64,000 nucleotides of DNA. Origin: Phycisphaerae bacterium. GTDB lineage: Bacteria; Planctomycetota; Phycisphaerae; Phycisphaerales; UBA1924. Under the pieces are notes generated by a model. The model was not told the DNA's origin and did not search any database. It saw only the letters and a program-made list of their open reading frames with translations. The stretch lies in assembly GCA_030432255.1 (NCBI GenBank), contig JAUIHS010000002.1, forward strand, positions 124,001 to 188,000, in the 5' to 3' direction. Shown piece after piece: positions 32,783 through 46,723 of the stretch. A program made the translations under genes and the position numbers. Numbering within the stretch: position 1 is the stretch's first letter; every line of letters starts with the position of its first letter.

Positions 32783-32810
32783 TTGACAGTGTAAACGTGG
32801 TTGCTACGTT
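32783..32810 (+). promoter_or_regulatory. Probable sigma-70-type promoter of the exopolysaccharide island
   Basis: TTGACA (32783-32788), 16 bases of spacing, TACGTT (32805-32810). The start site would be about 55 bases before the GTG at 32873. The same -35 and spacing are found upstream of rplM at 58771, supporting it as the housekeeping promoter of this organism. Confidence 0.6.
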
Positions 32811-32872
32811 GCTGCCCCTTTTCAGCGCATCGGGCACCACGATAAGACGCCGATGGACGCAAGGAGTCGGTT

Positions 32873-34459
32873 GTGAGCAGACGAGGATGGACATCAACGC
32901 GAGTGCGCAGGGCCGCCGCTCTGAGTGCGCTCGCTGGATCGGCCACGATGGTGCTCCCGGGCTGCCAATTGGACAGCTTCATGGACCCCGGCGTGACAGG
33001 CCGGTGGGAGCACACCCCGACCATCGTGCCCATCCTCGATCGCATCGACGTCATCGAGCGGGATGCCGGCGAATTCGTCGATGTCAGCGACGTGCTTCCT
33101 GAAGACCTGATCCCCGAACCCGCCGACTACCGCGTGGGCCCGGGTGACTTCCTCCAGATCGAGATCTTCGACTTCCTCGACAGTGGCGCGCCGGGACTCT
33201 ACGAGCGCGCGGTCGACGGTCGGGGTTTCATCGACATCCCTCAGCTTGGACGCATCTACGTGGCGGATTCGAACGCCGCGGAGGTCGCTGAACTTCTGAA
33301 GCAGCGCATCCGCGATGCGGACATTCTTGATGATCCCTTCGTGACGGTGCAGGTGCCCGGTCAGCGTCAGGCGACGTTCTCGGTGCTCGGCGCGGTCCCG
33401 AATGTAGGTCGTTACCAGATCACAAAGCCCGACTATCGCCTGCTTGAGGCGCTCACCGATGCCGGCGGCGTGCCGCCCACGGTCGAGAATGTCTTCGTGA
33501 TTCGGCAGGTGCCGCTCTCCGATCAAGTCAGCCACGGCATCGGTGGTGATACACCACCGTCCAACCCGGATGCGGTCCCCCAGCCTGACGACCAGACGAC
33601 ACCCGAGGATCTGGAGAATCTGCTTCAGGACCTCGGCGGCGATGACCCGGATGTCAGCGGTGGCTGGATCAGTATGAGCGCCCGCACCGGCGATGAGCCC
33701 GTACTGGACCTCCCCGAATCCGCCGAGTCGCTCGCGATGATGTCACAGGACGGCATTGAGCCGATCCTCGAACTTCCGGGTGAGGATGATGACACCGAGG
33801 CGACTGTTTCCACGCCCGCCGGTCAGTCCGGCGGCGCACGATGGATGTTCCTCGATGGGCAGTGGGTCCGCGCCGTGCCGCGTACAACCACGGTGGAAGG
33901 TTCTGCCCTGCCCGAGGGCGATGATCCGCTCTCGGTCATGGCACAGGCCGAAGACCTCGTGACCCAGCGCGTGATCCGCGTGCCGGTGAAGCCGCTGATT
34001 CAGGGTGCCGCGGCGTACAACATCGTGGTTCGCCCCGGCGACGTGATTCGCGTTGATCCGCCTCAGACGGGCGTGGTGTACATGGGTGGCCCGGGCATTG
34101 CCCGCCCCGGCACCTACAACCTCCCCGCCGGCGGCAAGTTGACACTCCGCCGGGCGGTGATTTCGGCGGGCGGTCTGTCATCGATCGGCATCCCGGAGCG
34201 CGTGGACCTGATTCGCATGGTGGGGCCGGATCGGCAGGGCATGGTCCGCCTGAACCTGCGGGCGATCGCCGATGGCACGCAGCCGGACATCCTCCTGAAG
34301 GCGGACGACATCGTCGATGTCGGGACGACGTGGTGGGCGACGCCGCTGGCTGTGATTCGCGGCGGGTTCCGGGCCTCATACGGCTTCGGCTTCCTCCTGG
34401 ATCGCAACTTCGGTAATGATGTGTTCGGTCCGCCCCCGACGAACGTCGGTAACCGATAG
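32873..34459 (+). CDS. Wza-like polysaccharide export protein with SLBB domain
   Basis: The GTG at 32873 has AAGGAG six bases away and gives 528 residues. A lipoprotein signal ends in VLPGC. The Poly_export domain follows (about 80-165: YRVGPGDFLQIEIFD, RGFIDIPQLGRIYV, DPFVTVQVP), then an SLBB domain (VLGAVPNVGRYQI, LLEALTDAGG). A long acidic insert (about 215-320) with low-complexity sequence interrupts the usual architecture. A second SLBB-like part follows (GPGIARPGTYNLPAGGKLTLRRAVISAGGL). This outer-membrane lipoprotein should form the exit pore for a polysaccharide. The gene opens an island with exosortase, chain-length and initiating-transferase genes. Confidence 0.9.
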   Translation: MSRRGWTSTRVRRAAALSALAGSATMVLPGCQLDSFMDPGVTGRWEHTPTIVPILDRIDVIERDAGEFVDVSDVLPEDLIPEPADYRVGPGDFLQIEIFDFLDSGAPGLYERAVDGRGFIDIPQLGRIYVADSNAAEVAELLKQRIRDADILDDPFVTVQVPGQRQATFSVLGAVPNVGRYQITKPDYRLLEALTDAGGVPPTVENVFVIRQVPLSDQVSHGIGGDTPPSNPDAVPQPDDQTTPEDLENLLQDLGGDDPDVSGGWISMSARTGDEPVLDLPESAESLAMMSQDGIEPILELPGEDDDTEATVSTPAGQSGGARWMFLDGQWVRAVPRTTTVEGSALPEGDDPLSVMAQAEDLVTQRVIRVPVKPLIQGAAAYNIVVRPGDVIRVDPPQTGVVYMGGPGIARPGTYNLPAGGKLTLRRAVISAGGLSSIGIPERVDLIRMVGPDRQGMVRLNLRAIADGTQPDILLKADDIVDVGTTWWATPLAVIRGGFRASYGFGFLLDRNFGNDVFGPPPTNVGNR

Positions 34460-34744
34460 AGGTGGGCATGGGAGTCGCCCGGGCTTTTTCTCGGTCCTGA
34501 CCGAACCTGCCGCGACCCCCTGACGTAAGCAGCGTTACTGGTACGGTCCCGGACCGTTCCTGGTGGTATGCGCCGGACCCCCGTTCTGGTGGGGGCTGGT
34601 TCCGGGTGGGCGCAGATGGACGCAGGGATGTCAGGCGTTCGGTGACAGGTGGCCCGAGTGGTCGCAGAAGGTGCGTGGAACCCCCTCCGGGCTCCAAGAG
34701 GACTGATTCGCTCTGTTGCGTGAGCCGATGATCGTGCAGAATCC
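34460..34744. other. 285-base region between the Wza-like gene and the exosortase gene, with palindromes
   Basis: A 15-base palindrome-like sequence ACGGTCCCGGACCGT lies at 34543-34557 and may be an operator. A stem of CCCCC and GGGGG (about 34577-34598) follows. Neither has a T tract. The region could hold a promoter for the exosortase operon; I see no convincing -35/-10 pair. Confidence 0.45.
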
Positions 34745-44899: not shown

Positions 44900-46347
44900 C
44901 CGCCTGGGCCGCCATGATTCACAAGCCACTGAACATTCTGCTGGCACAGACCGACTCGGGACTGGAGGCGACGGCAGCCGTCGTTGACCAGGTGTCCGAG
45001 ATGGGTCAGTCGCGCGCCGACATTCTTTCGGGCTACGTCGGTGTGCTCGTCGTGGCGTTCCTGGCGACGCTGATCGCCACTCCGATCATGCGGCGCCTCG
45101 CCATTGCGAATGGCGTCGTCGACAATCCCGGTGAAGCGCGGAAGGCGCACCGCATTCCGGTCGCGTACCTTGGCGGCGTGGCGGTCTTCCTCGGCCTGCT
45201 CGCGGGTGTCGGTCTGAGCTACTTCGGCGGGCAGTTGCCGGATGACGTCTACCAGGGACACTTCAGCATTCACGAACAGCGACCGGTGCCACCCTCGATC
45301 GTCCTCGGGATGGCGCTCATCATGCTCACCGGCCTCATCGATGATGTCGTCGGACTCATGCCGCGGGTGAAGGTCGCTGGACAGTTGCTGGCGGCGGCGG
45401 CTCTGGCGATGGAGGAGGTGGGCACCAATCTGGCCCGTGGCGTCATGCGTCCGATCGGCGAGTTTGTCGGGAAGCCGGACCTGACGTGGGCCATCGATCT
45501 TCCGATGACGGTTCCGTTCGTTGGAACCTCCGTTGAGATTGACGTCATCTACTGGGTGGGGACGGCAATCATCGCGGTATTCGTTCTGGGCGCGTGCAAC
45601 GCCAGCAACCTGATCGACGGGTTGGACGGGCTGTTGTCCGGCGTCACGGGGATCGCCGCGATCGGCATCGGCGTCATCGCGTTGAACCTTGCGGTGCTGG
45701 ACTTCGGCGGCCCCTCGGAAGCGATCGGCAGCCTCGATTCGGCGCGGATCATCGTGTCGCTGAGCCTGCTCGGTGCGTGTCTCGGGTTCCTGCCGCACAA
45801 TTTCAATCCGGCGAGCATTTTCCTCGGCGACTGTGGATCGTTGCTGATGGGGTACGTCACGATCGTGCTCATTCTGACGCTGGGTGACAACGGCATGACA
45901 CACCTCGTCATTGCCGGCCTGATCATCTACTCCATTCCGATCATGGATACCGCCCTGGCGATCATTCGGCGCAAGATGGCCGGCCTGCCCATGAGCGCCC
46001 CCGACGACCAGCATCTGCATCACATGCTCAAGCGGGCACTGGGTGTCAAGGGTGCCGTGCTGACGCTGTATGCCATGGGTGCGATGTTTGCGATTCTCGG
46101 TGTGATGCTCTCCATGTGGCGTGGCCGGATCGTCTTCGTGATTGCCCTGATCATCACGAGCTTCATCGGCGTGTATGCCGTGAAGGTGGCTCGCCGCCGC
46201 GTGCATGAGGAAGCGGCCATGAAGTTGATGAAGCCGGGTACCGTGCCCGCGCCGACGCCGGGTTCCACGTCGACGACCACACCGCCCCCGGCGTCCACTG
46301 CCACGCAGAAGCCGGAACCGGATCCCAACGCCACCTCGCCCGCGTGA
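44896..46347 (+). CDS. WecA/MraY-like polyprenyl-phosphate sugar-1-phosphate transferase
   Basis: The product has 483 residues with about ten hydrophobic segments. Family landmarks are NGVVDNPGEARKAHRIPV (donor side), LTGLIDDVVGL and NLIDGLDGL (Asp motifs that bind Mg and substrate), FLPHNFNPASIFLGDCGS and DDQHLHHML. These match the WecA/TagO group, which loads a sugar phosphate on a lipid carrier and starts polymer synthesis. A Pro/Thr-rich C-terminal tail is extra. It overlaps the epimerase stop (ATGA at 44896-44899) and is followed 13 bases later by a CMD-family gene. It is the only initiating transferase of the island. Confidence 0.93.
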   Translation: MTAWAAMIHKPLNILLAQTDSGLEATAAVVDQVSEMGQSRADILSGYVGVLVVAFLATLIATPIMRRLAIANGVVDNPGEARKAHRIPVAYLGGVAVFLGLLAGVGLSYFGGQLPDDVYQGHFSIHEQRPVPPSIVLGMALIMLTGLIDDVVGLMPRVKVAGQLLAAAALAMEEVGTNLARGVMRPIGEFVGKPDLTWAIDLPMTVPFVGTSVEIDVIYWVGTAIIAVFVLGACNASNLIDGLDGLLSGVTGIAAIGIGVIALNLAVLDFGGPSEAIGSLDSARIIVSLSLLGACLGFLPHNFNPASIFLGDCGSLLMGYVTIVLILTLGDNGMTHLVIAGLIIYSIPIMDTALAIIRRKMAGLPMSAPDDQHLHHMLKRALGVKGAVLTLYAMGAMFAILGVMLSMWRGRIVFVIALIITSFIGVYAVKVARRRVHEEAAMKLMKPGTVPAPTPGSTSTTTPPPASTATQKPEPDPNATSPA

Positions 46348-46360
46348 CCGGACCGCCAGC

Positions 46361-46723
46361 ATGAGCTACGAGCATTTCGACGAGTTTCGTGCCGCGCGGG
46401 ACCGCGCCCAGACGAGGCTCCAGAGTGTGGAGCACCTCGGACTCAAGCGTTTCCTGCGCATGGACGCCGCCGCGTATGAAGATCTCACCGCCAAGGGTGG
46501 ACTTGATACGAAGACAAAGGAATTGCTGGGGCTGGTGGCATCAACGGTGCTGCGATGCGATGACTGCATCAACTACCACGTGGAGCAGTGCCTCGAGGCG
46601 GGCTGGACTGTCGCGGAGCTGGAGGACGCCTTCAACGTCGCGATGATCGTCGGCGGCAGCATCACCATCCCGCACATCCGGCGTGCGATGCTGATGGTGG
46701 ATGAGTTGAGCGGAGATCAGTGA
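46361..46723 (+). CDS. Carboxymuconolactone decarboxylase family protein (AhpD-like)
   Basis: The product has 120 residues, normal for one-domain members. It has C66-D-D-C69 with H73 and an upstream TKELLGLVAS helix, the redox-type signature of AhpD-like CMD proteins. It starts 13 bases after the WecA-like gene in the same direction, so it may be co-transcribed with the end of the island by chance or for oxidative defence. It is shorter than the AhpD-like protein at 14686 and shares only the motif region. Confidence 0.88.
   Translation: MSYEHFDEFRAARDRAQTRLQSVEHLGLKRFLRMDAAAYEDLTAKGGLDTKTKELLGLVASTVLRCDDCINYHVEQCLEAGWTVAELEDAFNVAMIVGGSITIPHIRRAMLMVDELSGDQ

Follow-up and report, generated by a model that had tools for sequence, protein, structure and literature searches.

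An Exosortase-Linked Block of Phycisphaerae for Predicted Polysaccharide Export, with a Co-polymerase That Is Likely a Pseudokinase

Introduction

A 64,000-nucleotide stretch of the Phycisphaerae bacterium assembly GCA_030432255.1 (contig JAUIHS010000002.1, forward strand; G000:C108:124001-188000 in our coding), to which we refer as the window, carries consecutive genes for a Wza-like exporter, an exosortase, an EpsI-like protein, a giant tetratricopeptide repeat (TPR) protein and a Wzc-like co-polymerase. The genome measures 4.54 Mb in 122 contigs and is 94% complete. We consider it probable that these genes belong to an operon-like block of Phycisphaerae (Planctomycetota) with predicted roles in polysaccharide export and in the sorting of tagged proteins, that its co-polymerase is a likely pseudokinase, and that export likely proceeds without tyrosine phosphorylation. 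The Wzc-like protein has no Walker A lysine, a point that the initial annotation of this DNA had missed. Since this lysine is lost and an asparagine replaces an active-site aspartate, the protein is likely a pseudokinase, and the exporter therefore likely works without a phosphorylation switch.

The features of the island are as follows (positions in the window; aa, amino acids; NDP, nucleoside diphosphate; BY-kinase, bacterial tyrosine kinase).

32873-34459, plus strand: Wza-like outer-membrane polysaccharide export protein, 528 aa (PF02563 59.7 bits, two SLBB domains)
34745-35725, plus strand: exosortase, 326 aa (PF09721 160.3 bits; Cys210, Arg255, His276)
35722-36570, plus strand: EpsI-like protein (DUF3485), 282 aa; ATGA overlap with the exosortase gene at 35722
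36647-41350, plus strand: giant TPR protein, PrsT-like (TPR families), 1567 aa from TTG 36647 or 1555 aa from ATG 36683
41532-43775, plus strand: Wzc-like co-polymerase and likely pseudokinase, containing a BY-kinase-like domain; Thr551 stands at the Lys position and Asn575 at the second Walker A' position
43799-43828, plus strand: terminator-like hairpin between the Wzc and epimerase genes, 13 pairs and a T-rich tail
43856-44899, plus strand: NDP-sugar epimerase/dehydratase-like protein, 347 aa (PF01370 175.6 bits)
44896-46347, plus strand: WecA-like membrane sugar-phosphate transferase, 483 aa (PF00953 108.2 bits); ATGA overlap at 44896
46361-46723: carboxymuconolactone-decarboxylase-like (CMD-like) gene, inside the island's end as first drawn (46723)

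By Pfam and NCBIfam profile scores, every island gene named in the initial annotation is present on the plus strand and in the place given for it. Both ATGA overlaps are exact, and a length of 1555 residues for the TPR protein is right for the ATG start. No NCBIfam equivalog scored above its cut-off for the Wza-like protein, nor, among the matches listed, for the epimerase-like protein.

Results and Discussion

Conservation of the Block

Exosortase matches occur in 61 of 61 genomes (the window's own and 60 relatives), although in one of them, G048, at 24 bits only. To compare gene order, we used an unnamed set of loci (40 of the 60 relative genomes, each contributing a stretch of at most 20 kb) and a named set of 80 loci; the two sets share some contigs, and the terms order, family and class refer to kinship codes assigned to the genomes. 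In all 40 relative loci the genes run Wza-exosortase-EpsI-TPR on one strand with the Wza-like gene first. The Wzc gene follows directly after the TPR gene in the 38 loci that have one; the remaining two loci stop with the TPR gene at the end of the contig. A Wzc match was found in 67 of the named loci, and exosortase-EpsI-TPR-Wzc is kept in every one. This is the order whose conservation had been proposed as a check on the island, and the scattering of these genes among relatives, which had been named as the outcome that would speak against it, did not occur. Exosortase and EpsI are fused into one chain in 14 of 41 loci, and the TPR protein measures 1505-1717 aa in 39 of 41, with the other two cut by contig ends.

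Outside the order, we took 20 class genomes and examined the locus surrounding the top Wzc match in each. Sixteen of these loci keep exosortase-EpsI-TPR-Wzc, while two others (L271 and L272) have no EpsI match. WecA-like matches are found in none of the 20 and epimerase-family matches in six, two of them strong; within the order, the 40 relative loci hold an epimerase gene in 34 cases, a WecA-like gene in 36, an upstream LipA-like gene in 33 and the CMD-like gene in four. From these counts outside the order, it follows that the unit common to the class is the five-gene block Wza-exosortase-EpsI-TPR-Wzc and that the WecA-like gene is, as far as sampled, an addition particular to the order. The initial annotation had read the whole island as one assembly line that would place tagged proteins in or on a polymer. 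The conserved order of the block agrees with a single assembly line, but the WecA-like gene lies outside the class-shared unit and the Wzc-like protein is likely a pseudokinase.

Two proposed landmarks at the downstream side of the block fared less well. The strong terminator reported at 43800 corresponds to the hairpin at 43799-43828, but a simple scan found such a hairpin in one of 35 homologous Wzc-epimerase gaps, that of the window itself, which makes it local to the window's genome and rules it out as a conserved boundary. Over the whole region, eight terminator-like sites compare with a shuffle mean of 8.6, that is, no excess. Likewise, the proposed island end at 46723 takes in the CMD-like gene, which is present in just four of the 40 relative loci.

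An EpsI profile run over 149 genomes of the phylum matched 18, nine of the class and nine of the other 140, the latter weakly. The exosortase gene adjoins EpsI in the loci of six of the nine non-class genomes; one locus (L322, G276) reads TPR-EpsI-exosortase and another (L314, G298) has Wzc, EpsI and TPR matches. Within their 1.5 kb flanks these loci have no Wza match, and the full block was not seen in them. Related arrangements may occur outside the class. As a separate observation, the order genome G048 (contig C46; L207, L244) seemingly has no block, and its best Wzc-like match is canonical and adjoins a Wzy-family match.

Missing Kinase Residues in the Wzc-like Protein

The P-loop consensus of BY-kinases is GK[ST], in agreement with the comparison kinases examined here. 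In the Wzc-like protein the corresponding segment is MPGSGTTS. Two alignments, of 39 and 64 rows, show no Lys at the Lys position and Asn throughout at the second Walker A' position. We pooled both order-level sets and removed duplicates, which left 84 distinct sequences (order membership is inferred rather than coded for 56 of these, which come from named loci). Not one has Lys or Arg at the Lys position, where the sets show eight kinds of other residue, and in each of the 84 the second Asp of Walker A' is replaced by Asn, giving DxN in place of the DxD motif. Residue 575 is the sole position that is at least 95% conserved in the order and differs from a clear (at least 60%) consensus of the comparison kinases.

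Proteins from elsewhere in the class display intermediate states. Profile searches of 54 class genomes outside the order gave a best match that could be read in 50 (of the remaining four, G111 gave none at the threshold, G095 yielded no locus, and G089 and G163 gave short or broken matches, which we placed in the comparison group). Of these 50 proteins, 30 have Lys, 11 Arg and nine neither, with Asn in 49. The gene neighborhood was checked for 20 of these 50 proteins. Among 25 other kinases that served for comparison, 18 of which were chosen by a canonical-kinase profile that favors Lys and seven of which were not, Lys is found in 25 and Asp in 24. Eleven further TIGR01007 loci (L212-L222), which stand outside these counts and include four from genomes already counted, combine Lys or Arg with Asn. 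The number of tyrosines after residue 707 has a median of seven in the comparison kinases (range 1-11), four in the Lys-bearing class proteins and two in the order (range 2-5).

We also searched the alignment for a compensating lysine and found none: no Lys or Arg column has been gained in the Lys-less proteins. In family f9 the lysine is absent in all seven genomes read (L228, L229, L231, L282, L285, L291, L293), often with Tyr or another residue at the Arg577 position, and this loss may be separate or shared. Outside the Wzc-like family, the P-loop of a 712-aa Wzz-domain co-polymerase (P0030) also seems by eye to have no lysine, so lysine loss may have arisen elsewhere too.

To place these changes, we built a tree of 110 rows with the two trait columns excluded (35 of the 84 order-level sequences, namely the window's and 34 random ones, all 50 class proteins and all 25 comparison kinases). 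The order rows form one clade with a support of 100 by the Shimodaira-Hasegawa-like approximate likelihood ratio test, and the tree shows at least four changes between Lys/Arg and neither, and three between Asp and Asn.

The overall architecture is that of a Wzc protein. The family profile has Wzc 7nhr as its top match in the PDB, and an AlphaFold2 model of the Wzc-like protein (predicted local distance difference test 89.2, predicted template modeling score 0.58) has Wzc chains as its best matches. Profile and model agree on a periplasmic part fused with a BY-kinase fold in one chain. The modeled kinase domain superimposes on CapA1B1-ADP-Mg with a target template modeling score of 0.93 and a root-mean-square deviation of 1.8 over 238 columns, and the kinase fold is accordingly predicted to be intact.

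A comparable protein has been made on purpose. In E. coli Wzc, phosphorylation is abolished when K540 is mutated; this mutant assembles into homogeneous octamers, and its structure was also determined with ADP and Mg (PMC8285477). Counting along the profile alignment makes residue 575 the equivalent of E. coli Wzc D564. Because the lysine is missing and Asn occupies the D564 equivalent, the natural Lys-less protein resembles this engineered mutant, and by analogy it would be inactive, octameric and nucleotide-bound. The protein as a whole is likely a pseudokinase co-polymerase, judging by its sequence.

Points against This Reading and Two Kinase Alternatives

Several observations weigh against the picture of an exporter with a dead kinase. 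Walker B Asp653, P-loop Gly550 and the tail tyrosines Y716 and Y727 are invariant in 84 of 84 order sequences, which argues against a wholly dead domain, since such a domain would not need them. PF01451, the family of Wzb-type low-molecular-weight phosphatases, is matched in 37 of 37 genomes, with three matches in the window's own; loss of such a phosphatase, which we considered as possible evidence for kinase loss, thus lends no support. The tree was built by a quick method; 44 of its 107 inner branches are drawn open, many forks are weak, and some branches are long. Finally, in one class locus (L264) Wza-TPR-Wzc is retained but no exosortase or EpsI was detected, and another (L254) has neither EpsI nor TPR; given these two loci, the coupling of exosortase and exporter is not strict.

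Some of these points would fit a Wzc-like protein that is still an active tyrosine kinase or ATPase by way of other residues, in an otherwise ordinary phospho-regulated exosortase-exopolysaccharide locus. Walker A' Arg577 is invariant in the 84 sequences as well, and Wzb-family phosphatases are common. Against such activity stand the variety of residues at the Lys position with no conserved Lys or Arg in its place, the Asn at the second Walker A' position, the low median of tail tyrosines, and the abrogation of E. coli Wzc phosphorylation by the lysine mutation (PMC8285477). On balance, we regard an active kinase as unlikely.

Alternatively, a kinase encoded by another gene could phosphorylate the two remaining tail tyrosines in trans, such that a phosphorylation cycle goes on although the protein itself is dead. 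The conservation of Y716 and Y727 would be explained by this arrangement, and some order genomes do have a canonical paralogue; G147, from the same family as the window's genome, contains one Lys-less Wzc and one canonical Wzc. In the window's genome, at its 94% completeness, the Wzc-like protein alone passes the TIGR01007 cut-off, and four weaker matches reach 22-33 bits, which speaks against a partner kinase there. We judge phosphorylation in trans to be quite improbable and retain the pseudokinase reading.

Sorting Proteins and Their Candidate Substrates

The exosortase is the only one in the genome. It scores 121.7 bits with TIGR02602 (cut-off 105.55) and exceeds the cut-off of no named subtype. 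The residues Cys210, Arg255 and His276 had been identified correctly in the initial annotation and are invariant in 27 of 27 aligned unfused exosortases. The EpsI-like window protein alone matches no Pfam family; in the EpsI alignment, PF11984/DUF3485 is matched by 62 of 63 rows and TIGR02914 by 29 of 63 at E ≤ 1. Its residues Tyr109, His118 and Cys123 do not vary within the order alignment; of 16 class proteins, 15 retain them and the remaining one has a gap. A search of the PDB with the EpsI model gave no trustworthy match. The TPR protein scores 148.6 bits with TIGR02917 (PrsT), below the cut-off of 312.2. An N-terminal membrane helix was read by eye from its sequence, and the protein may have a scaffold role.

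Tagged proteins are abundant in the window's genome, where the tail-tag profile TIGR02595 gives 57 matches at E ≤ 10, of which 29 lie above the cut-off. Since 12 of 14 control genomes also match at this loose E-value (two of them above the cut-off), the tails were read one by one. All 30 tails read, out of the 57 matches, end 21-26 residues past the start of the match and contain a hydrophobic stretch followed by a cluster of Arg or Lys. The middle residue of the PxP motif is Ala in 21 tails, Thr in seven, Gly in one and Glu in one, such that the motif is mostly PAP or PTP and not PEP. With Glu in a single tail out of 30, we call the system exosortase-type instead of PEP-CTERM proper. The spacing from the motif to the basic cluster is 13 in 20 of the tails read and 14 in eight. 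Three reading frames in the window are candidate or possible substrates.

30126-31043, minus strand: candidate exosortase substrate, 305 aa, with a PAPGA-transmembrane-RRRR tail; TIGR02595 match C108:154129-154194, 14.4 bits, below the 16-bit cut-off
20424-20882, minus strand: candidate exosortase substrate, open frame of 153 aa with a PAPAA tail; TIGR02595 match C108:144424-144486, above the cut-off
46738-47529, minus strand: possible substrate, 263 aa, PF22825, with a weaker PSPAG...RRRT tail seen by eye; not among the TIGR02595 matches

Elsewhere in the genome, three tagged proteins of 219-262 aa that are alike before the tag are encoded in a row (L077, L078, L081; G000:C115, 92.4-94.0 kb).

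Origin of the Predicted Polymer

The initial annotation had noted the lack of Wzx- and Wzy-like genes within the island and had placed such parts elsewhere, as we could confirm. PF04932 (Wzy-type) is matched once and PF13440 (Wzx-type) twice in the window's genome; the PF04932 match and one of the PF13440 matches lie about 10 kb apart on contig C113, unlinked to the block, and the second PF13440 match is on C12 (L192). Together with PF00953, found at window position 44896 and in L191, flippase, polymerase and initiating-transferase families are all represented in the genome. The cluster on C113, at about 111-125 kb (L190:11280-16799, L191:1190-4743), encodes an asparagine-synthase-like protein, a Wzx-like protein, a glycosyltransferase family 4 (GT4) protein, the second PF00953 protein and an 830-aa Wzy_C protein.

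A fusion of PHP and GT4 domains at 11754 had been put forward as a missing pathway part. The protein encoded at 11754-14444 (minus strand, 896 aa) has a clear C-terminal GT4 domain, but its N-terminal PHP (12.9 vs 26.4 bits) and PHP_C (19.5 vs 21.3 bits) matches fall below the Pfam cut-offs and nothing ties the gene to the block, so this candidate is not supported.

The distance between block and polymerase raises the question of whether the block is chiefly a protein-sorting machine, with Wza- and Wzc-like proteins that carry tagged proteins or conjugates and without a separate exopolysaccharide of its own. No Wzx, Wzy or further glycosyltransferase lies inside the block, and among the matches listed we saw by eye no Wzy-family match within 20 kb of an exosortase, the nearest being about 43 kb away (G028). 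We give this explanation little credence: PF04932 is matched in 60 of the 61 order genomes, a WecA-like transferase has joined the block in the order, and L264 keeps Wza-TPR-Wzc without a detected exosortase. Moreover, the Wza and Wzc families are polysaccharide machinery. Export of a polymer together with sorting of proteins remains our preferred interpretation.

Proposed Mode of Action

We propose that the Wzc-like protein would form a co-polymerase ring in the inner membrane beneath the Wza-like channel. Lacking a kinase of its own, the protein would act in the manner of the E. coli Wzc lysine mutant, which forms a stable octamer and retains ADP binding. A membrane-anchored periplasmic scaffold could be provided by the TPR protein. 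Exosortase and EpsI may cut the PxP-transmembrane-Arg tails of tagged proteins and then release the proteins or attach them at the surface, and the repeat units would be made, flipped and polymerized by genes elsewhere, such as the C113 cluster.

A bolder idea, which we find doubtful but still worth stating, is that the kinase clock of capsule-type export has been swapped for a protein-sorting clock. The loss would have been stepwise, with Asp to Asn first, then fewer tail tyrosines and then Lys to Arg or to nothing, consistent with the four or more changes on the tree. What is left might be a nucleotide-holding ring, its cycle of assembly timed by the periplasmic TPR scaffold and by the cargo of exosortase and EpsI.

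Comparison with Known Systems

Loci that combine an exosortase with exopolysaccharide genes, EpsI and a TPR protein have been known since 2006 (Haft et al. 2006, PMC1569441). The PEP-CTERM/EpsH system of that work resembles the present one in having an exosortase beside polysaccharide genes, an adjoining or fused EpsI, a TPR protein and many tagged proteins. It differs in that we find a fixed five-gene block, a TPR protein of 1505-1717 aa below the PrsT cut-off, a Lys-less Wzc and mostly PAP or PTP tags.

The co-polymerase shares with Wzc (PCP-2a) proteins (7nhr and relatives; PMC8285477, PMC11986026) a periplasmic part, membrane helices and a BY-kinase fold in one chain, and a Wza-type gene nearby. 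Unlike these, it has no Walker A lysine, has Asn at the D564 equivalent and retains a median of two tail tyrosines. Pseudokinases in this role have precedents. The EcpK-EpsV pair of Myxococcus xanthus is proposed to act without phosphorylation and involves a BY-kinase fold without catalytic residues that serves a co-polymerase (PMC12004946), as we suppose here. There, EcpK is a separate protein from which every Walker motif and every tail tyrosine has disappeared; in contrast, the present domain is fused, its loss is partial and graded, two tyrosines are invariant and an exosortase is part of the locus. Fused PCP-2/BY-pseudokinase proteins such as SMc01795 are also known (Cuthbertson et al. 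2009, as cited in PMC12004946). These are alike in joining a periplasmic part and a dead kinase in one chain, and they come from other phyla.

New are the conserved block of the class, the partial and graded kinase loss with living intermediates, and the link to an exosortase locus. Among the titles listed by searches of Creative Commons-licensed papers, none concerns this locus or a Wzc of Planctomycetota without the lysine. The EcpK paper of 2025 asks in its discussion how a co-polymerase can function when its kinase is dead (PMC12004946). Canonical kinases, Lys-bearing DxN proteins, Arg-bearing proteins and Lys-less proteins form a natural series, the last three in mostly matching neighborhoods where checked, with which one can examine where in the series kinase activity is lost and what takes the place of the kinase. 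With exosortase, EpsI and the giant TPR protein tied to one conserved export block, there is also a defined gene set for knock-out. The block is a real, conserved system of a known kind, and its variant regulator makes this current question testable.

Other Features of the Window

At 1192-6314 (plus strand) a DUF1800 protein with CBM60 precedes a DUF1501 protein; the pair is functionally uncharacterized. The gene at 23646-24635 (plus strand) gives weak dual-specificity phosphatase matches, and the C-terminus of its product is cytochrome c'-like, just at the cut-off. Two adjoining related proteins of 573 and 579 aa at 26577-30016 (minus strand) have, by eye, repeated DxDxD-type motifs and dockerin-like C-termini. 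Finally, an 861-aa protein encoded at 57274-59859 (minus strand) ends in a CAAX protease-like (Rce1) domain.

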